This document shows positions 35,395 to 64,000 of a stretch of DNA of 64,000 bases, one piece after another. Where the stretch lies: assembly GCA_035714365.1 (NCBI GenBank), contig DASTMB010000008.1:1-64000 (forward strand), read 5' to 3'. The DNA is from Mycobacteriales bacterium. Its GTDB lineage: Bacteria > Actinomycetota > Actinomycetes > BP-191. Positions within the stretch are counted from its first letter, which is position 1. Each line of letters starts with the position of its first letter. The position numbers and the translations under genes are program-made. Below the pieces are notes generated by a model. That model worked only from the letters and a program-made list of their open reading frames with translations, ran no database searches and had not been told where the DNA came from.

Positions 35395-36011
35395 GCACCG
35401 ACCCAGACGTGGTCGAGCCGGGGCGGATGCAGGGCGAGGCCGCCCCCGCCGCCGCGAACCAGCGCACGACCGAGCCGGTGCCGCCCGCGGCGCAGCAGGA
35501 CGTCCCCGGCGAGGGGTCGCGCGCCGACTACGGCTACGGCACGTCCACCGGCCCCGGGCCGCGCGAGGGCGCGCTCGGCGGTCGCGGTGGTGCGGGCGGC
35601 GGCGTCGCGGCGCCGGCGTTCTCGCACGCGCCGGAAGGCCGTTCACCGGAGGCGTCGCGGCCGGAGCCGTCGGGCGCGGGCGACCACGCGCAGGGGCCGC
35701 ACGATCCCGGCCGGATCGAGGCCGACCTGCCCGGGGAGGCGTCCCGGGTGCCGGGCGTGCAGGGCGTCTCGCCCGACCCGTTCGCGGTGGACACCGCGTC
35801 GGGCGCGGCCCGCGTGCAGTCCGCGGCGGCATCCGGCGGGGCCGACTCGGGCGGCGATGCGAAGGGCGTTCCCGTCCCGTCGGAGACGCCCGCGGAGGGC
35901 ACCTCCGAGGCCGCGGAGCCGGTCGACGGCGTCCGCATCACGGCCGTCGCGCGCGAGGGGCTGGCCGACGGCGAGCCCGACAACCGCGCTCCGTCCACAG
36001 GCGTTTTCTAG
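35391..36011 (+). CDS. Low-complexity disordered protein, hypothetical
   Basis: 206 residues dominated by Ala, Gly, Pro, Glu and Asp with no hydrophobic core, signal peptide or domain. ATG 35391 is coupled to the 62-residue gene. The last codons contain box 1 of the competence-type promoter (35994-36002). Possibly a stress- or desiccation-type hydrophilin, but this is speculation. Confidence 0.6.
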   Translation: MSTDPDVVEPGRMQGEAAPAAANQRTTEPVPPAAQQDVPGEGSRADYGYGTSTGPGPREGALGGRGGAGGGVAAPAFSHAPEGRSPEASRPEPSGAGDHAQGPHDPGRIEADLPGEASRVPGVQGVSPDPFAVDTASGAARVQSAAASGGADSGGDAKGVPVPSETPAEGTSEAAEPVDGVRITAVAREGLADGEPDNRAPSTGVF

Positions 36012-36064
36012 CGTCCACAGATTGGCCCCCGCCCCTCTTGCGCGGGGCCGCGCGTCCCTAGCGT
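35994..36064 (+). promoter_or_regulatory. Competence-type promoter upstream of yraN-comM-dprA
   Basis: TCCACAGGC (35994-36002), 11 bases, TCCACAGAT (36014-36022), 34 bases, CCTAGCGTCG with -10 TAGCGT (36059-36064). There is no -35 hexamer. Spacing is identical at comEA and comEC and near-identical at the M23 gene. Expected transcription start about 36071, 27 bases before the GTG, with GGGGAGG as ribosome-binding site. Confidence 0.8.
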
Positions 36065-36097: not shown

Positions 36098-36454
36098 GTG
36101 CGGGCGAAGGACGCGGTAGGGCTGTTCGGCGAGCGGGTCGCCGTACGACATCTCGAGGACGCCGGCTACGCCGTCCTCTCCCGCAACTGGCGCTGCCCCG
36201 CCGGTGAGATCGACGTCGTCGCGATCCGCGGCGGCGTGGTGGTCTTCGCCGAGGTCAAGACGCGGCGTTCGGAGGCGTACGGGCCGCCGGCGCTCGCCGT
36301 GACCCGGAAGAAGGCGGCGCGGGTGCGCGCGGCCGCCGTCGACTGGCTGTCGCAGCACCTGCTGCACGACACGCCCGTGCGCTTCGACGTCGTCGCCGTG
36401 CGCATCCCGCGCACCGGCGCGGCCGAGGTCGAGCACATCGAGGGCGCGTTCTGA
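36098..36454 (+). CDS. YraN family endonuclease-like protein
   Basis: 118 residues, UPF0102. Restriction-endonuclease-like fold with GEIDVVAIRGGVVVFAEVKTRR supplying D, E and K of the PD-(D/E)xK type site. GTG 36098 with GGGGAGG upstream. Single-base stop/start overlap with comM. Almost always beside comM/dprA; probably acts on DNA but not proven. Confidence 0.93.
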   Translation: MRAKDAVGLFGERVAVRHLEDAGYAVLSRNWRCPAGEIDVVAIRGGVVVFAEVKTRRSEAYGPPALAVTRKKAARVRAAAVDWLSQHLLHDTPVRFDVVAVRIPRTGAAEVEHIEGAF

Positions 36455-37983
36455 TGGGGCTCGGGCGGGCGCTGTCGATCGGCCTGGTCGGGCTCGACGG
36501 CCACGTGGTCGAGGTCGAGGCGGACCTGGCGGCGGGGCTGCCGGCGTTCGTGCTGATCGGGCTGCCCGACGCGACGATGCAGGAGGCGCGCGACCGGGTC
36601 CGCGCCGCCGTCGTCAACTCCGGCTGCGCCTGGCCGCAGCGGCGGATCACGCTCGCGCTGTCGCCGGCCGCGCTGCCGAAGCGGGGGAGCGCGTTCGACC
36701 TCGCGATGGCCGTCGCCGTGCTCGCCGCCAGCGAGTCGGTGCCTCCCGCCGCCGTCGAGGGGCTGGTGCTGCTCGGTGAGCTGTCGCTCGACGGCCGGGT
36801 GCGCCCGGTGCCCGGCGTGCTGCCGGCGGCGTTCGCCGCGTGGCGGGCGGGGGTGCGGCGGCTCGTCGTGCCCGCCGCCAACGTCGCCGAGGCGGCGCTG
36901 GTGCCGGACGTCGAGGTGCTCGGGTTCGCCGACCTGGCCGGGCTGCTCGCGTACCTGCGCGGCGAGGCCGCGGCTCTGGTGCGGCCGGGGGAGGCGCCCG
37001 CGGTCGCCGGGCCGGACGACGCGGTCGCCGGGCCGGACCTCGCCGACGTGCTCGGGCAGGACCACGCCCGCCGCTGCCTGGAGGTCGCCGCGGCCGGCGG
37101 GCACCACGTGTTCCTCCTCGGCCCGCCCGGCGCAGGCAAGACGATGCTCGCGGAACGCCTCCCCACGATCCTGCCCCGCCTCGGCGACGACGCGGCGTTG
37201 GAGGTCTCCGCGATCCACTCCGTCGCCGGCACGCTGCCGCCGGACGCGCCGCTCGTGACCGTGCCGCCGTTCCGGGCGCCGCACCACAGCGCGTCGCTGC
37301 CCGCGCTGATCGGCGGCGGCAGCGGCGTCGCCCGGCCTGGCGAGGTGTCGCTGGCGCACCGGGGGGTGCTGTTCCTCGACGAGGCGCCGGAGTTCGCGAC
37401 CGGTCACCTCGACGCGTTGCGGCAGCCGCTGGAGTCCGGCCACGTCACGCTCGCCCGCGCCGGCGGCGTCGCGCGGTACCCGGCGCGGTTCACGCTCGTG
37501 CTCGCCGCCAACCCCTGCCCCTGCTCGACCGCCGGCCAGAAGGACCGCGACTGCACCTGCCCGGCGGGCGTGCGGCGGCGGTACCTGGGGCGGCTGTCCG
37601 GGCCGTTGCTCGACCGCGTCGACATCCGCGTCGAGGTCGCCTCGGCCACCCGCGTCGAGCTCACCGCCGGGCCGGGGGAGCCGAGCGCCGCCGTGCGCGA
37701 CCGCGTGCTCGCCGCGCGCGAGCGCATGGCGCACCGCTACCGCGGCCTGCCGTGGACCGCCAACGCCGACGTCCCCGGCCGCGAGCTGCGCCGCCGCTGG
37801 CCGCTCGCCGCCGACGCCCTCGCGCCCGCGCACGCCGCCGTCGACACCGGGCGGCTCAGCGCGCGCGGCCTCGACCGCGTCGTCCGCGTCGCCTGGACCC
37901 TCGCCGACCTGGAAGGCCGGGCCGCGCCCGGCGCCTCGCACGTCCGCCGTGCCGTCTCGCTCCGGAAGGGAACCACCCCATGA
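36454..37983 (+). CDS. comM: ComM/YifB AAA+ ATPase (Mg-chelatase-like)
   Basis: Branch-migration helicase for integrating transformed DNA (Vibrio ComM). 509 residues. N-terminal Lon-like domain LVGLDGHVVEVEADLAAGLPAFVLIGLPDA, AAA+ Walker A GPPGAGKTM (about 225), Walker B LFLDEAPEF, and a Cys-rich insertion ANPCPCSTAGQKDRDCTC. C-terminal helical domain with GLDRVVRVAWTLADLEG. ATGA overlap with dprA. Under the competence-type promoter. Confidence 0.96.
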   Translation: MGLGRALSIGLVGLDGHVVEVEADLAAGLPAFVLIGLPDATMQEARDRVRAAVVNSGCAWPQRRITLALSPAALPKRGSAFDLAMAVAVLAASESVPPAAVEGLVLLGELSLDGRVRPVPGVLPAAFAAWRAGVRRLVVPAANVAEAALVPDVEVLGFADLAGLLAYLRGEAAALVRPGEAPAVAGPDDAVAGPDLADVLGQDHARRCLEVAAAGGHHVFLLGPPGAGKTMLAERLPTILPRLGDDAALEVSAIHSVAGTLPPDAPLVTVPPFRAPHHSASLPALIGGGSGVARPGEVSLAHRGVLFLDEAPEFATGHLDALRQPLESGHVTLARAGGVARYPARFTLVLAANPCPCSTAGQKDRDCTCPAGVRRRYLGRLSGPLLDRVDIRVEVASATRVELTAGPGEPSAAVRDRVLAARERMAHRYRGLPWTANADVPGRELRRRWPLAADALAPAHAAVDTGRLSARGLDRVVRVAWTLADLEGRAAPGASHVRRAVSLRKGTTP

Positions 37984-39149
37984 CCGCTGACCTCGCCCTC
38001 GCGCCCGGCGCCGCCGCCGCCGGCGCCTCCCCGGAACGCCGCCTCGCCTGCGCCGCGCTCTCCCGCGCCGTCGCGCCGGACGACCGGCACTTCCGCGCGC
38101 TCTACCCGCGGTACACGCCGGAGGAGGCGTGGGCGCGGCTCGTCGCGGGCGACGCGCCGCCCGAGCTGGTGGCCGCCACCCGCCGCGCCGTCGCCGCCGC
38201 CGACCCGCAGCGCGACCTCGATGCCGTCGCGGCCCTCGGCGGCCGCCTCGTCTGCCCGGGCGACGCCGACTGGCCTGAAGCGCTGGACGACCTCCGCGAC
38301 CGGGTGCCGGTCGCGCTGTGGGTGCGCGGCGGGGCGCCGCTCGCCGCGGCCACGGAGCGTTCGGTGGCGATCGTCGGGAGCCGGGCGGCGACGCCGTATG
38401 GCAACCTCGTCGCCGCCGAGCTCGCCGTCGAGCTCGGCGAGCGCGGGTGGGCGGTCGTGTCCGGCGGCGCGTACGGCATCGACGCCGCCGCCCATCGCGG
38501 TGCCCTCGCGGCCGGCGCGCCGACCGTCGCCGTCCTCGCGTGCGGCGTGGACGTGTCGTACCCCTCGGGCAACCGCCGCCTCTTCGACGACGTCGCGGCC
38601 GCCGGGCTGCTCGTCAGCGAGTGGCCGCCGGGGGCGTCGCCGACGCGGCTGCGGTTCCTCTGGCGGAACCGCGTCATCGCCGCCCTCGCCCGCGGCACCG
38701 TCGTCGTGGAGATGGGCCACCGCAGTGGCGCCCGCCGTACCTGCTCCGAGGCCTCCTCGCTCGGCCGGCACGTCATGGCCGTGCCCGGGCCGGTGACCTC
38801 CGCCGTCTCGGTGGGCTGCCACACGCTGCTGCGGCAGGGCGTGCCGTGCGTCACCAGCGCCGCCGAGGTGCTCGAGCTGGTCGGGCGGCTGGGCGAGGAC
38901 GTCGCGCCCGTGCCGCCGGACGCGGCGACCCGGCGCGACCGGATCAGCCGGGACGCGCAGCGGGTGCTCGACGCGCTGGACCCGCTGGAGTTCCTCACCG
39001 CCGAGCAGGTCGCCGCCGAGGCGCAGCAGGACCAGTCGGCGACCGAGGTGCTGCTCGACGCGCTCTGCGACCACGACCTCGTCGTGTGCAGCGCCGGACG
39101 GTACCGGCTCGGCCCGGCGGCGTTGGAGGGGGTGCGCCGCTCGGCGTGA
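37980..39149 (+). CDS. dprA: DNA-processing protein DprA
   Basis: Loads RecA on incoming single-stranded DNA during transformation. 389 residues: N-terminal helical region with [21 protein letters not shown], central Rossmann domain [22 protein letters not shown] (about 123-144), [31 protein letters not shown] and RNRVIAALA, and a C-terminal winged-helix. ATG 37980 overlaps comM. Confidence 0.96.
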
Positions 39150-43075: not shown

Positions 43076-43825
43076 TCACGGCGGGTCGCGGGACTGGCCG
43101 CCGCGCGAGCGCGGGGTGACCGCGCCGGCCGCCAGCGCGCCGGCCGCCAGCGCCCCGGCCGCGAGCGGCACCCCCGGACCACGCGACGCGCGGCCGGAGC
43201 GGCCGCGGCCGGCGACGACCGGCACCGGCCCGGCCGCCCCGACGCCGGGTGGGACGGGCGCCGGCGCGGGTGGCGCGGCGCCCGCCGGAACGGCCGGCGC
43301 GCCGGCGGCGAGCGGCGCGGGCCACGGGGCGGCGGGCGCGGGCGAGACCGGCAGCAGCCGGCTCGGACCGCGCCGCAGCAACGACAGCGGGTCGAGGTAC
43401 GTGTCGCCGCGCAGCAGCCCCCAGTGCAGCAACGCCTCCCCGGGACCGGCCGGACCCGCGTGGCCGCCGCGCAGGACGCCGACCGGCTCGCCCGCGCGCA
43501 CCCGCTCGCCGGCGCCGACGGTCGCGACGACCGGCTCGTACGTCGTCCGCATCCCGCCGTGCGTGACCGCGACGACGCCGCGACCCGCGATTACGCCGGC
43601 GAACGTCACCTCGCCCGCGCCGGCGGCGATCACGACCGCCCCCGCCGGCGCGGCCAGGTCGACGCCGCGGTGGCCCGGCCCCCAGCGCGTCCGCGGCGGC
43701 TCGAACGCCCTGCGGACCGCGAGCGGCCCGGCCAGCGGCGGCACCCAGCCGCCGGCAGCGGCGCGAGCGGGGCAGCCGAGCAGGACCGCCACGACGAGAC
43801 CGAGCAGCGCGGCGAACGACGGCAT
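43076..43825 (-). CDS. M23 (LytM) family peptidoglycan-hydrolase-like protein
   Basis: 249 residues: signal peptide (1-24), LytM domain (about 28-150) and a long Pro/Ala tail ending in three LAAGA repeats. The metal-binding H52 and D56 (GHRGVD) and H134 (LLHWG) are present, but the first His of the HxH motif is Leu132, so catalytic activity is doubtful. M23 genes occur beside rpsB in Streptomyces. ATG 43825 has AGGAGG eight bases upstream. Its promoter carries the same double TCCACAG boxes as the competence genes. Confidence 0.88.
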   Translation of the reverse strand: MPSFAALLGLVVAVLLGCPARAAAGGWVPPLAGPLAVRRAFEPPRTRWGPGHRGVDLAAPAGAVVIAAGAGEVTFAGVIAGRGVVAVTHGGMRTTYEPVVATVGAGERVRAGEPVGVLRGGHAGPAGPGEALLHWGLLRGDTYLDPLSLLRRGPSRLLPVSPAPAAPWPAPLAAGAPAVPAGAAPPAPAPVPPGVGAAGPVPVVAGRGRSGRASRGPGVPLAAGALAAGALAAGAVTPRSRGGQSRDPP

Positions 43826-43846: not shown

Positions 43847-43918
43847 ACCCTGCCGTCAGCAGCCGGGGGAGGCCACGGGCGCGACCGGATCTGTGGACGG
43901 CGCCCGGGAGCCTGTGGA
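43847..43918 (-). promoter_or_regulatory. Competence-type promoter upstream of the M23 gene
   Basis: Minus strand: TCCACAGGC (43918-43910), 12 bases, TCCACAGAT (43897-43889), 34 bases, then GGCAGGGTCGT aligned with CCTAGCGTCGT; -10 candidate CAGGGT (43852-43847). Boxes are perfect, the -10 is weaker and the inter-box gap is one base longer than at the com genes. Confidence 0.65.
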
Positions 43919-60394: not shown

Positions 60395-60975
60395 CGCTGC
60401 TGCTCGCCGTCGTCGCCGGGTACCTGCTCGGCGCCGTGTCGCCCGCGACGCTGCTCGCCCGCCGCGCCGGCGCCGACCTGCGCGCCTCCGGCTCCGGCAA
60501 CCCCGGCGCCACCAACGTCGGCCGCCTCCTCGGCCCGCGCGCCGGCGTCCTCGTCGCCGTCCTCGACGTCCTCAAGGGGCTGCTGCCCGCGGCGGCGTTC
60601 GGGCTGCTGGCGCACGAGGCCGGGCTGCTCGCCGGGCTGGCGGCGATGCTCGGGCACGTCACGTCGCCGTTCCTGCGCGGGCGCGGCGGCAAGGGCGTCG
60701 CCACCGCCGCCGGCGCCGTCCTCGGCTCGCACCCGGCGTGGGCGCCGTTGGTGCTGCTCGTCTGGCTCGTCGTCACCGGCCTCTCCCGCTGGGTCGCGCT
60801 CGGCTCCGTCGCGGCCGTGGCGGGCCTGGTCGTGTGCGCGGTGGCGTTCCGCGCGCCGGGCGCGGACGTTGCGTGGGCGGCCGCGATCGCGCTCGTCGTC
60901 CTCACCAGACACAGGCGGAACTTCTTCTCCACAGATCGCTCCCGCGCCCGCCGCGAGGCCGACCCGGCGCCCTAA
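60391..60975 (+). CDS. plsY: Glycerol-3-phosphate acyltransferase PlsY
   Basis: 194 residues, several transmembrane helices. Motifs GSGNPGATNVGR, KGLLPAAAFGLL and FLRGRGGKGVATAAG are the three conserved active-site loops. Transfers acyl from acyl phosphate to glycerol-3-phosphate. Its last codons and TAA carry the comEA promoter boxes and -10. Confidence 0.95.
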   Translation: MTLLLAVVAGYLLGAVSPATLLARRAGADLRASGSGNPGATNVGRLLGPRAGVLVAVLDVLKGLLPAAAFGLLAHEAGLLAGLAAMLGHVTSPFLRGRGGKGVATAAGAVLGSHPAWAPLVLLVWLVVTGLSRWVALGSVAAVAGLVVCAVAFRAPGADVAWAAAIALVVLTRHRRNFFSTDRSRARREADPAP

Positions 60976-60978
60976 CGT
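60908..60978 (+). promoter_or_regulatory. Competence-type promoter upstream of comEA
   Basis: GACACAGGC (60908-60916, 7 of 9 matches to box 1), 11 bases, TCCACAGAT (60928-60936), 34 bases, CCTAACGTCG with -10 TAACGT (60973-60978). Entirely inside plsY coding sequence except the -10, whose TAA is the plsY stop. The ATG of comEA starts nine bases after the -10, so the mRNA is essentially leaderless. Confidence 0.75.
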
Positions 60979-60986
60979 CGGGTGGC

Positions 60987-61661
60987 ATGTCGCTCCGTCC
61001 TCCCGACGCCGTCCGCGCGCGCCTGGCCGCGCTCGTCACGCCTGCGCCGCCGCCGGAGCCGGCCGAGCCGGTCGAGCCCGTTGGCTCGCTGCGTGGCGGG
61101 CGGTTCGACCCCGGGCCGCGCGGTGCCGCCGCGCTCGCGCTCGTCGCGGTGCTCGCGGTCGCGGTGACGGCGTTCGTCGTCTGGCGCGGCCGCCCGCGCG
61201 CGGTCTCCGCGCCGCCGCCGCCGGCCGTCGCGGTCTCGACGGTCGCGCCAGCCATGCTCGTCGTGGACGTGACCGGCGCCGTACGCCGCCCCGGCCTGGT
61301 CCGCGTCCCCGCCGGCTCGCGCGTCGCCGACGCGCTCGCCGCGGCCGGTGGCGTCCGCCCCGGCGCCGCCACCACCGGCCTCAACCTCGCCCGGAAGGTC
61401 GTCGACGGCGAGCAGCTCGTCGTGGGCGGACCCGCCTCGCCGGGCGCGCCGGCTGCCGCCGCGTCCGGCGGGCTGGTCAACCTCAACACCGCCACCGCCG
61501 ACGACCTCGACGCCCTCCCCGGCGTCGGCCCGGTGCTCGCGCAGCGCATCGTGGAGTGGCGGACGCAGCACGGGTCGTTCGCCAGCGTCGACCAGCTCCG
61601 CGAGGTGAGCGGTATCGGGGCGCGCAAGCTCGCGTCGTTGCGCGACCTCGTGGCCGTCTGA
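60987..61661 (+). CDS. comEA: Competence protein ComEA
   Basis: Membrane-anchored DNA receptor for transformation. 224 residues: cytoplasmic Arg/Pro N-terminus, one transmembrane helix (about 49-68), a SLBB domain (VVDVTGAVRRPGLVRVPAGSRVADALAAAGG) and a C-terminal double helix-hairpin-helix (VNLNTATADDLDALPGVGPVLAQRIVEWR). ATG 60987. Confidence 0.95.
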   Translation: MSLRPPDAVRARLAALVTPAPPPEPAEPVEPVGSLRGGRFDPGPRGAAALALVAVLAVAVTAFVVWRGRPRAVSAPPPPAVAVSTVAPAMLVVDVTGAVRRPGLVRVPAGSRVADALAAAGGVRPGAATTGLNLARKVVDGEQLVVGGPASPGAPAAAASGGLVNLNTATADDLDALPGVGPVLAQRIVEWRTQHGSFASVDQLREVSGIGARKLASLRDLVAV

Positions 61662-61732
61662 TCCACAGGCTTTTCTCGTCGTCCACAGATCCGCTGCGGC
61701 CCCTGCCCGCGGCCGTGGCGCGTCCCTAGCGT
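61662..61732 (+). promoter_or_regulatory. Competence-type promoter upstream of comEC
   Basis: TCCACAGGC (61662-61670), 11 bases, TCCACAGAT (61682-61690), 34 bases, CCTAGCGTCG with -10 TAGCGT (61727-61732). GCGCGTCCCTAGCGTCG is identical to the comM promoter. Start codon GTG 61740 is at the predicted transcription start. Confidence 0.82.
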
Positions 61733-61739
61733 CGGCTCC

Positions 61740-64000
61740 GTGCCGAACGACCCGTCCCCGCCGTCCCCGCCGTCTGGCGGCCCGCCGCGTCCCGCGCCGC
61801 CGCCTGTCGCCCCGCTGCGCGGGGCCGCGCCTCCGCCCGCCGCCTCGCCGCGCGGGGCCGCGTCCCCGCCTGCCGGACCGCCGCGTCCCGCGCCGCGCGC
61901 CGACCTGCGGCTGGCCGTCCCCGCGCTCGGCGCGTGGCTCGCCGCCGCGCTCGCCGCCGTCCACCCGCGCCTCACCGTCGCGACGCTCGCCCTCGTCACG
62001 CTGGCCTACGCCACCGTCCTGCTCCGCCGCGTTCCGCGCCGCCACGCCGCGCTCGGCGCCGCCGCGCTCGCCTGCGCCGCCGCCGCGACCCTCGCCACCA
62101 CCGCTCGCAACGCCACCCGCGACGGCCCGCTAGCTGCCCTCGCCCGCGACCGCGCCGTCGTCACCCTCGACCTCGCCGTCACCGCCGACCCGCGCCCGCT
62201 CACCGGCCGCGTCGTCGGCGCCCAGCGCGTCGCCGACACCACCCTCGTGCTCGCTCGCGCCGAACGCGTCCGGCGCGGCCCCGCCACGCTCGCGCTGCGC
62301 CGCCCGGTCACCGTGTTCGCCCCGCCCGCCGGGTGGGCCGCCCGCCTCCCCGGCGAACGCCTCCGCGTTACCGGCCGCCTCCGCCCCTCCCTCGACCGCG
62401 ACGCCGGCCCGGTGTTCGAGCCGTTCGGCCGGCCCGTCCGCCTGCGCGCGCCGTCGCTCGCCGCCCGCACCGCCGGGCGCCTGCGCGCCGGTCTCCGCGA
62501 CGCCGCCGCCGTGCTGCCCGCCGAGCCGCGCGGGCTGCTGCCCGGCCTCGTCGTCGGCGACACCACCCGGCTCGACCCCGCGCTGCGCGAGGACTTCCGC
62601 CGCACCGGCCTCACCCACGTCGTCGCCGTCTCCGGCCAGAACGTCGCCATCCTGCTGGCCGCCGTCCTCCTCGCCGCCCGCCGGATCGGCGTCGGTCCCC
62701 GCACCGCGGCGGTCGCCGGCGCGGCCGCGCTCGCGTTCTTCGTCGTGCTCGCCCGGCCGTCGCCGTCGGTGCTCCGCGCCGCCGCCATGGGCGGCCTCGG
62801 CCTCGCCGCCACCGTCACCGGCCGCGAACGCGCCGCCGTCCGCCTGCTCGCCGCCGCCGTGCTGTTCCTCGTGCTGCTCGACCCCGCGCTCGCGCGCTCG
62901 CTCGGGTTCGCGCTCTCCACCGCCGCCACCGCCGGGCTGCTGCTCCTCGGGCCCCCGTGGCGTGCCCGCCTCGCGCGCCGGCTGCCCGGCTGGCTGGCCG
63001 ACGCCGTCGCCACGCCGCTCGCCGCGCAGGTGGCGTGCGCGCCGGTGCTCGCGGCGGCGTTCGGGCGGGTCAGCCTCGTCGCCGTCCCCGTCAACGTCGC
63101 CGCCGCGCCCGCCGTCGCCCCCGCCACCGTCGCGGGCGTCGCGGCCGCCGCGCTCGCGCCGTTGAGCCCGGCGCTCGCCCGGCTCGCCGCCCGTGCCGGC
63201 GGCATCCCCGCCGCGTGGCTGGTCCGCGTCGCGCACACCGGCTCCCGGCTGCCCGCCGCGCAGCTCGGCGTCCCCACCGGCCTGACCGGCGCCGCCCTCA
63301 CCGTCGCCGCGCTCGCCGCCCTCGCCGCGCTGCTCCGCCGCCCGCGCACCCGCCGCCTCGTCGCCACCGTCGCGGCCGCCGTCACCGTCGCCGGCGGCGC
63401 CGCCTGGACCCTCTCGCCCGGCTGGCCGCCGGCCGGCTGGCGGTTCGTCGCCTGCGACGTCGGCCAGGGCGACGCGCTCGTCGTCCGCACCACGGCCGGC
63501 GCCGTGCTGGTCGACGCCGGCCCCGACCCGGTCGCCGTCGACCGCTGCCTCCGCGACCTCGGCGTCGCGCGGTTCGCTGCGGTCGTGCTCACCCACTTCC
63601 ACGCCGACCACGTCGAGGGGCTGCCCGGCGCGCTGCGCGGCCGCCGCACCCCGACCGTCGCGGTCGGCCCGCTCGCCGAGCCCGCCGACGAACGCGCCCG
63701 CGTCGCCACCTGGACCGCCGCCCGCCGCGTGCCGGTCCGCGTCGCCGCGCTGGGCGAACGCTGGCGCGCCGGCGATGCGGCGTTCGACGTGCTCGGCCCG
63801 GAGGCGCCGTTCCACGGCACCGCCTCCGACCCCAACAACAGTTCGCTCGTGCTGCGCGTCACGCTGACCGGCCTCGTGCTGCTGCTCACCGGCGACGTCG
63901 AGGAGCCGGCCCAGCTCGCGCTCCTCGCCCGCGGCCCGGTCGGCCACGCCGACGTCCTCAAGGTGCCGCACCACGGCTCCGCCCGGCAGACCGCCGAGTT
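61740..64000 (+). CDS. comEC: DNA uptake channel ComEC (3' end outside window)
   Basis: 753 visible residues. Pro/Arg/Gly-rich cytoplasmic N-terminus (about 1-53), transmembrane segments, an OB-type region (about 130-240), the Competence domain (GLLPGLVVGDTTRLD, TGLTHVVAVSGQNVAIL) with many helices, and the metallo-beta-lactamase domain with CDVGQGDALVV, THFHADHVEGL and VPHHGSARQT. It forms the pore for single-stranded DNA. GTG 61740 gives a continuous frame to the end of the window. Transcription from the competence-type promoter. Confidence 0.95.
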   Translation, partial: MPNDPSPPSPPSGGPPRPAPPPVAPLRGAAPPPAASPRGAASPPAGPPRPAPRADLRLAVPALGAWLAAALAAVHPRLTVATLALVTLAYATVLLRRVPRRHAALGAAALACAAAATLATTARNATRDGPLAALARDRAVVTLDLAVTADPRPLTGRVVGAQRVADTTLVLARAERVRRGPATLALRRPVTVFAPPAGWAARLPGERLRVTGRLRPSLDRDAGPVFEPFGRPVRLRAPSLAARTAGRLRAGLRDAAAVLPAEPRGLLPGLVVGDTTRLDPALREDFRRTGLTHVVAVSGQNVAILLAAVLLAARRIGVGPRTAAVAGAAALAFFVVLARPSPSVLRAAAMGGLGLAATVTGRERAAVRLLAAAVLFLVLLDPALARSLGFALSTAATAGLLLLGPPWRARLARRLPGWLADAVATPLAAQVACAPVLAAAFGRVSLVAVPVNVAAAPAVAPATVAGVAAAALAPLSPALARLAARAGGIPAAWLVRVAHTGSRLPAAQLGVPTGLTGAALTVAALAALAALLRRPRTRRLVATVAAAVTVAGGAAWTLSPGWPPAGWRFVACDVGQGDALVVRTTAGAVLVDAGPDPVAVDRCLRDLGVARFAAVVLTHFHADHVEGLPGALRGRRTPTVAVGPLAEPADERARVATWTAARRVPVRVAALGERWRAGDAAFDVLGPEAPFHGTASDPNNSSLVLRVTLTGLVLLLTGDVEEPAQLALLARGPVGHADVLKVPHHGSARQTAE

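Follow-up and report, generated by a model that had tools for sequence, protein, structure and literature searches.

The window, by which we mean the whole 64,000-nucleotide stretch of DNA analysed here, carries the genes yraN, comM, dprA, comEA and comEC on one strand and a gene for an M23 peptidase on the other. Paired boxes built on the core TCCACAG stand upstream of yraN, comEA, comEC and the peptidase gene. Gene calls and start positions come from a simple codon-bias script and not from annotation, while products were assigned by Pfam. The features are as follows, with positions counted from the first letter of the window.

35994-36022, plus strand: two-box site of yraN-comM-dprA, read directly; box 1 TCCACAGGC at 35994-36002, box 2 TCCACAGAT at 36014-36022
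36059-36064, plus strand: -10-like TAGCGT of yraN-comM-dprA, 38 bp past the TCCACAG of box 2 and at the same position in other lineages
36098-36454, plus strand: yraN (UPF0102; Pfam PF02021, E 2.4e-27)
36454-37983, plus strand: comM (Pfam PF01078/PF13335)
37980-39149, plus strand: dprA (Pfam PF02481, E 8.4e-64)
43076-43825, minus strand: M23 peptidase, a cell-wall hydrolase (Pfam PF01551, E 1.5e-11), 65 bp downstream of the fourth two-box site
43891-43918, minus strand: fourth two-box site, a perfect TCCACAG-N14-TCCACAG pair
60908-60936, plus strand: two-box site of comEA; degenerate box 1 at 60908-60916, box 2 TCCACAGAT at 60928-60936
60973-60978, plus strand: -10-like TAACGT of comEA, with the ATG start at 60987 and a leaderless transcript inferred
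60987-61661, plus strand: comEA (SLBB and HHH; Pfam PF10531, PF12836)
61662-61690, plus strand: two-box site of comEC; box 1 at 61662-61670, box 2 at 61682-61690
61727-61732, plus strand: -10-like TAGCGT of comEC, with the GTG start at 61740 and a leaderless transcript inferred
61740-64000, plus strand, continuing beyond the window: comEC (Pfam PF03772, E 2.1e-52)

Read directly, the site at 35994 has the layout TCCACAGGC-N11-TCCACAGAT-N34-CCTAGCGTCG and the site at 61662 is identical, while the site at 60908 reads GACACAGGC-N11-TCCACAGAT-N34-CCTAACGTCG. At all three promoters the boxes recur with a period of 20 bp, and CCTARCGTCG follows box 2 after 34 bp. An earlier note on this DNA had described this arrangement with equal spacings at yraN, comEA and comEC, a degenerate first box at comEA, and 17 bases common to the yraN and comEC copies around the -10 (GCGCGTCCCTAGCGTCG), and each of these descriptions agrees with the letters. 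Its claim of a fixed spacing holds for those three promoters but not overall, since the TCCACAG cores are separated by either N13 or N14; the fourth site, which the note did not list, is of the N14 kind. The start codons of comEA and comEC lie 51-52 bp past box 2, and both genes look leaderless.

In the source assembly, comEC and holA, the gene for DNA polymerase III delta, form a single frame of 1205 amino acids (window 61740-64000; locus L241:3741-7358). Here and below, G000 denotes the source genome, G001 and G002 two genomes of the same genus, C a contig and L an extracted locus. As holA is a separate gene in G001 and G002, the comEC-holA frame of the source genome may be a real fusion or a sequence error.

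Genome-wide occurrence and target genes

The source genome (3,798,465 bases in 98 contigs) was scanned for the pair, with the reversed pattern as control. TCCACAG-N13-TCCACAG has 12 exact matches and its reversal none, against roughly 0.012 expected from composition. The 20-base form GTCCACAGGC-N10-GTCCACAGAT, allowing up to 3 mismatches, gives 14 matches against 0 in the control. The earlier note had held that its proposal would fall if a genome scan found the motif equally often at random; the counts stand far above the control, and the box pair is confirmed as a real feature beyond chance. When the bare 14-mer is allowed 2 mismatches, noise is high (22 matches against 13 in the control), so weak matches say little on their own and only strong ones were used.

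Strong sites in the source genome lie upstream of yraN-comM-dprA, comEA, comEC, comF (a ComF-type phosphoribosyltransferase) and an SSB paralogue, all identified by Pfam. The tad/flp locus has three box-pair promoters, two of them with N14, in front of the genes for the Flp pilin DUF4244, tadZ and a TadE-like protein. The pilin was identified by Pfam, whereas tadZ and TadE, without a Pfam match above the cut-off, were named from the look of their sequences and from gene order. The remaining targets are rpfB (by Pfam), the M23 peptidase, two ImmA/IrrE-like peptidases, an ABC transporter and several unknown proteins. The boxes precede most of this genome's genes for the uptake and integration of foreign DNA, and the target set spans the pilus, the cell wall, the membrane channel, and single-strand DNA handling and recombination. 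In each genome, roughly every second pair lies ahead of a gene with no evident part in competence (an ABC transporter, ImmA/IrrE-like peptidases, unknown proteins).

The two ImmA/IrrE-type metallopeptidase genes with a pair are found at G000:C6:7950 and C10:125199 (L023, L025). ImmA/IrrE-type proteases often inactivate XRE repressors, and by that analogy these could feed into competence control.

Conservation and spacing among actinomycetes

Within the genus, the sister species G001 (a metagenome-assembled genome labelled 'Frankiaceae bacterium BP_191') has 12 exact pairs against 0 in the control. Their targets include rpsF-ssb as well as the orthologous yraN-comM-dprA, comF and rpfB, the tad operon and the gene for an RDD protein. 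In G001, comEA has box 2 only and comEC has a degenerate box 1. G002 has no box pairs, with 8 matches against 8 in the control at 2 mismatches, and its comEA retains box 2 alone (GTCGTCCACAGAT), 37 bp before TAGCCT. Its comEC is intact and, unlike that of G000 and G001, has lost its own promoter; the start overlaps the comEA stop and the two genes are translationally coupled (G002:C31, L239). The two-box form is therefore not indispensable. Box 2 is the more conserved part, because it alone is kept at comEA in both G001 and G002 and because it is box 1 that has degenerated at comEC in G001.

Among 297 genomes of the class, the exact stringent N13 pattern is confined to the source genus apart from two single matches. 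A genus-specific motif was nevertheless ruled out by two further comparisons. Most of some 30 other actinomycetes carry one or two TCCACA(G) boxes ahead of yraN-comM, and a scan of 12 genomes in which the gap was allowed to vary uncovered pairs of other spacing. No boxes were seen upstream of yraN in Pseudonocardia and Cellulomonas, and only one weak single box in Rothia. In three Frankia-labelled genomes (L072, L113, L128), the yraN-upstream boxes are inverted and not tandem, 18-19 bp apart.

The variable-gap scan shows that each lineage tends to its own spacing. In Geodermatophilus sabuli, 11 of the 12 pairs have N12, for which the chance, taken for one of 19 spacings, is about 2e-12, and in a Micromonosporaceae metagenome-assembled genome 7 of 9 pairs do. 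Micromonospora has N11 or N12, Microtetraspora N11 and Streptomyces CB01881 N10, with a weaker excess in Streptomyces (4e-3) and Microtetraspora (2e-3). The resulting period is 17 bp in Streptomyces, 18 in Microtetraspora, 19 in Geodermatophilus and 20-21 in the source genus. The note had argued from the 20-bp period that both boxes face the same side of the DNA; as the period ranges from 17 to 21 bp across lineages and promoters, the same-face placement had to be discarded.

In varying subsets, the targets in Geodermatophilus, Micromonospora, the Micromonosporaceae genome, Streptomyces and Microtetraspora are comEA(-comEC), yraN-comM-dprA, recA-recX, an SSB paralogue and tad. The RecA and SSB identities were confirmed by Pfam, and recA is a target in Geodermatophilus and Micromonospora; in Micromonospora an M23 gene is also under a box pair. 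The motif had been expected, if real, to be kept upstream of com orthologues in related species, and it is, both in G001 and, with altered spacing, in several actinomycete families.

Promoter geometry and a proposed competence regulon

Of 48 sites from four groups, 26 have a start codon 49-53 bp past box 2, against a background of 11% (p about 4e-13). Any visible TANNNT -10 is found 36-40 bp past box 2. By these distances, transcription would begin at the start codon or right beside it, and many of the transcripts are probably leaderless, an inference that depends on predicted starts. Relative to the inferred transcription start, the centre of box 2 falls at about -54 and that of box 1 at about -74. 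Box 2 and the core promoter form the fixed unit, since the distance between box 2 and the -10 is almost constant whereas the box period shifts from lineage to lineage. The note had stated that no -35 element is present. TTGACA is indeed absent, but a -35-like GTCCGTT is kept in G001 about 19 bp before the -10, where the source genome has merely a loose CCCCT.

This placement fits an activator site, although the sign of regulation is inferred. Conceivably, the pairs serve a repressor instead, or are a mobile repeat that plays no part in expression; the sign of regulation is unmeasured, and some pairs accompany genes that have nothing to do with DNA uptake. Yet a position 36-40 bp upstream of the -10 and a fixed distance to the start codon fit an activator. 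Moreover, boxes and promoter elements are common to the copies while the spacer sequence is not, and the copies recur at orthologous genes in distant families, so they are unlike a mobile repeat. We regard this alternative as very unlikely.

The candidate competence regulon put forward in the note is supported by the competence genes among the targets (comEA, comEC, comF, comM-dprA, ssb and tad/flp, with recA in other lineages). We therefore hold with considerable confidence that the boxes are the cis-element of a natural-transformation regulon with an activator. The site, its enrichment, the gene set, the conservation and the promoter geometry are observed, while activation, leaderless transcripts and competence itself are inferred without expression or binding data. 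In the mechanism we propose, a sequence-specific activator would bind the two TCCACAG boxes, centred at about -54 and -74, and would help RNA polymerase where the -10 is of the TAGCGT type and the -35 is poor. The tad/flp DNA-binding pilus would be switched on jointly with the cell-wall hydrolases M23 and RpfB and the uptake channel of ComEA, ComEC and ComF. SSB, DprA and ComM, with RecA in other lineages, would be co-activated for single-strand handling and recombination.

Competence regulons as a kind are already known, and those of ComK in Bacillus subtilis, of the ComX/SigX cin-box in streptococci and of CRP-S/Sxy in gamma-proteobacteria are examples. Like these, the box pair is one promoter element serving unlinked uptake, single-strand DNA-processing and pilus operons (an ssb paralogue, dprA, comEA, comEC, comF and sometimes recA). 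It differs from them in that TCCACAG pairs are unrelated in sequence, the pilus is Tad/Flp and not type IV, the regulator is unidentified and the phylum is another. A resemblance also exists to the sites of pneumococcal ComE (LytTR), where two direct repeats about two turns apart lie upstream of an activator-dependent promoter, but the repeat sequence is different and ComE controls early genes only. What is new is a conserved promoter element of a DNA-uptake regulon in Actinomycetota, a phylum for which the open-access papers searched describe none.

In this phylum, transformation of Micrococcus luteus requires the Flp/Tad pilus and ComEA/EC (PMC4322843, PMC8467076), and in Rhodoluna lacicola the com and tad genes are induced together (PMC8591293). 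According to M. luteus papers of 2021 (PMC8467076) and January 2026 (PMC12849477), the upstream competence regulators or cascade in Actinomycetota are unknown. A conserved, precisely placed cis-element offers a direct bait for such a regulator and allows the regulon to be listed in any actinomycete genome. It also predicts coordinated tad pilus, ComEA/EC, DprA, SSB and RecA in streptomycetes and Micromonospora, which would make natural transformation in antibiotic producers testable and may open genetic tools.

Candidate binding factors

One candidate is DnaA, in which case the boxes would be DnaA boxes and the replication initiator would control the DNA-uptake genes. The boxes in the dnaA-dnaN regions of Streptomyces and Micromonospora have TCCACAG as their core, and the com boxes of Streptomyces are perfect DnaA boxes (GTTATCCACAG). 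DnaA is universal, and in the source genome the only strong Bac_DnaA_C protein is DnaA itself; boxes are used in pairs, and both direct and inverted pairs (the latter in Frankia) exist, as for DnaA boxes. The DNA-binding region of DnaA, however, is identical between the source genome and Streptomyces at 57 of 59 positions, but the sequence just ahead of the core shows a systematic difference. TT stands there in all eight Streptomyces boxes but in only 2 of 44 in the source genus, where 17 of 22 first boxes have C at -2 (p 1.4e-4) and where the conserved boxes upstream of dnaA retain the TT. The boxes of the genus do not follow the complete 9-mer TTRTCCACA that its own DnaA domain IV would predict. 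The spacing of the pair varies by lineage while DnaA hardly does, and the com boxes, unlike DnaA boxes, keep a fixed distance to the -10. Their 9-mers are 8-12 bp apart, in contrast to the 2-3 bp favoured by E. coli DnaA (PMC11317965). Because a near-identical DNA-binding region goes with differing flanks and spacing, and because the gap between 9-mers is unlike that in E. coli, DnaA is disfavoured and not excluded, and we consider it unlikely to be the factor. As for a second DnaA-like DNA-binding protein, none was found in the source genome, where only DnaA scored above the cut-off. Upstream of gyrB, two TCCACAG boxes 32 bp apart are kept in G001 and G002 (L222 11627-11665, L223 11419-11457), and these are possibly true DnaA sites.

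The second candidate comes from M. luteus. The note knew of no described actinomycete competence regulator with such a site. Our searches of the open-access literature, which covered the site sequence, com genes with DnaA boxes and actinomycete competence motifs, likewise returned no description of the element or of a regulator with such a site, but one regulator, Mlut_14660, is genetically implicated (PMC8467076). There, nearly all mutants with raised comEA/EC expression map to Mlut_14660 or to its divergent rcpC/cpaB neighbour, and R64W in Mlut_14660 alone reproduces the phenotype; the parts consulted describe no binding site. The same com and tad genes are concerned in both systems. The proposal would be that the orthologue, a BldC-like winged-helix protein of the HTH_17 family, binds direct repeats head to tail and regulates its own gene. 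The source genome has such an orthologue (G000:C84, L261; PF12728, 53 bits), arranged divergently to RcpC/CpaB-CpaE like its M. luteus counterpart. A TCCACA box lies in the HTH_17-rcpC/cpaB intergenic region of G000, G001, G002 and Geodermatophilus. The related BldC also binds direct repeats head to tail (PMC5859096).

Against this, among the HTH_17 matches, of which not every weak one was examined, no orthologue was seen in Streptomyces CB01881 (G299) or Microtetraspora (G301), both of which bear pairs, whereas Rothia has the orthologue and no box pairs. BldC sites of Streptomyces are AT-rich AATTNNNNC repeats about one turn apart, and the box at the HTH_17 gene's own promoter is single or inverted and not tandem. 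The HTH_17 protein as universal binder was rejected, since the distribution of orthologues does not match that of the box pairs in the genomes examined. We find the HTH_17 protein a doubtful candidate, and no binding data exist for it; judged from sequence, its gene is likely to be a member of the regulon. The intergenic box in G000 is palindromic (GTCCACAGGTGTGGAC). The HTH_17-rcpC/cpaB boxes are inverted in three of the four genomes, with GTCCACA-N2-TGTGGAC in G000 and G002 (L261, L257, L265, L272).

This leaves an unidentified factor as the most likely binder. We give about an even chance to another dedicated, undescribed regulator that is present in most pair-bearing actinomycetes and whose binding geometry has drifted between lineages. 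A spacing that is near constant within lineages and ranges from 17 to 21 bp between them, together with lineage-specific flanks, suggests a site co-evolving with its protein, and no described regulator with a box-pair site was found in the literature searched. The support from that search is negative evidence only, limited to open-access sources, and no candidate gene has been identified. The broader reading, which we put forward tentatively and just short of an even bet, is that one ancient regulator, distinct from DnaA and from every described factor, governs DNA uptake throughout Actinomycetota. It would act on tandem TCCACAG boxes, and their spacing would have diverged from lineage to lineage but stayed nearly constant in each genome. 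If this is true, many supposedly non-transformable actinomycetes, including Streptomyces, retain a coordinated transformation programme.

The element also flags several proteins of unknown role as likely transformation factors. Genes for DUF4192 proteins, whose function is unknown, are under a pair in both Geodermatophilus and Streptomyces (L174, L198) and are likely regulon members. AbiEi/DUF559-like proteins with a nuclease-type C-terminal domain have a pair at the same distance in Geodermatophilus and the Micromonosporaceae genome (L173, L180, L189), and are candidates for new transformation factors. In the source genome, two proteins lacking any Pfam match are preceded by textbook forms of the promoter, with TAGCGT or TAACGT as the -10 (L031:5374-6180, L028:5955-6548).
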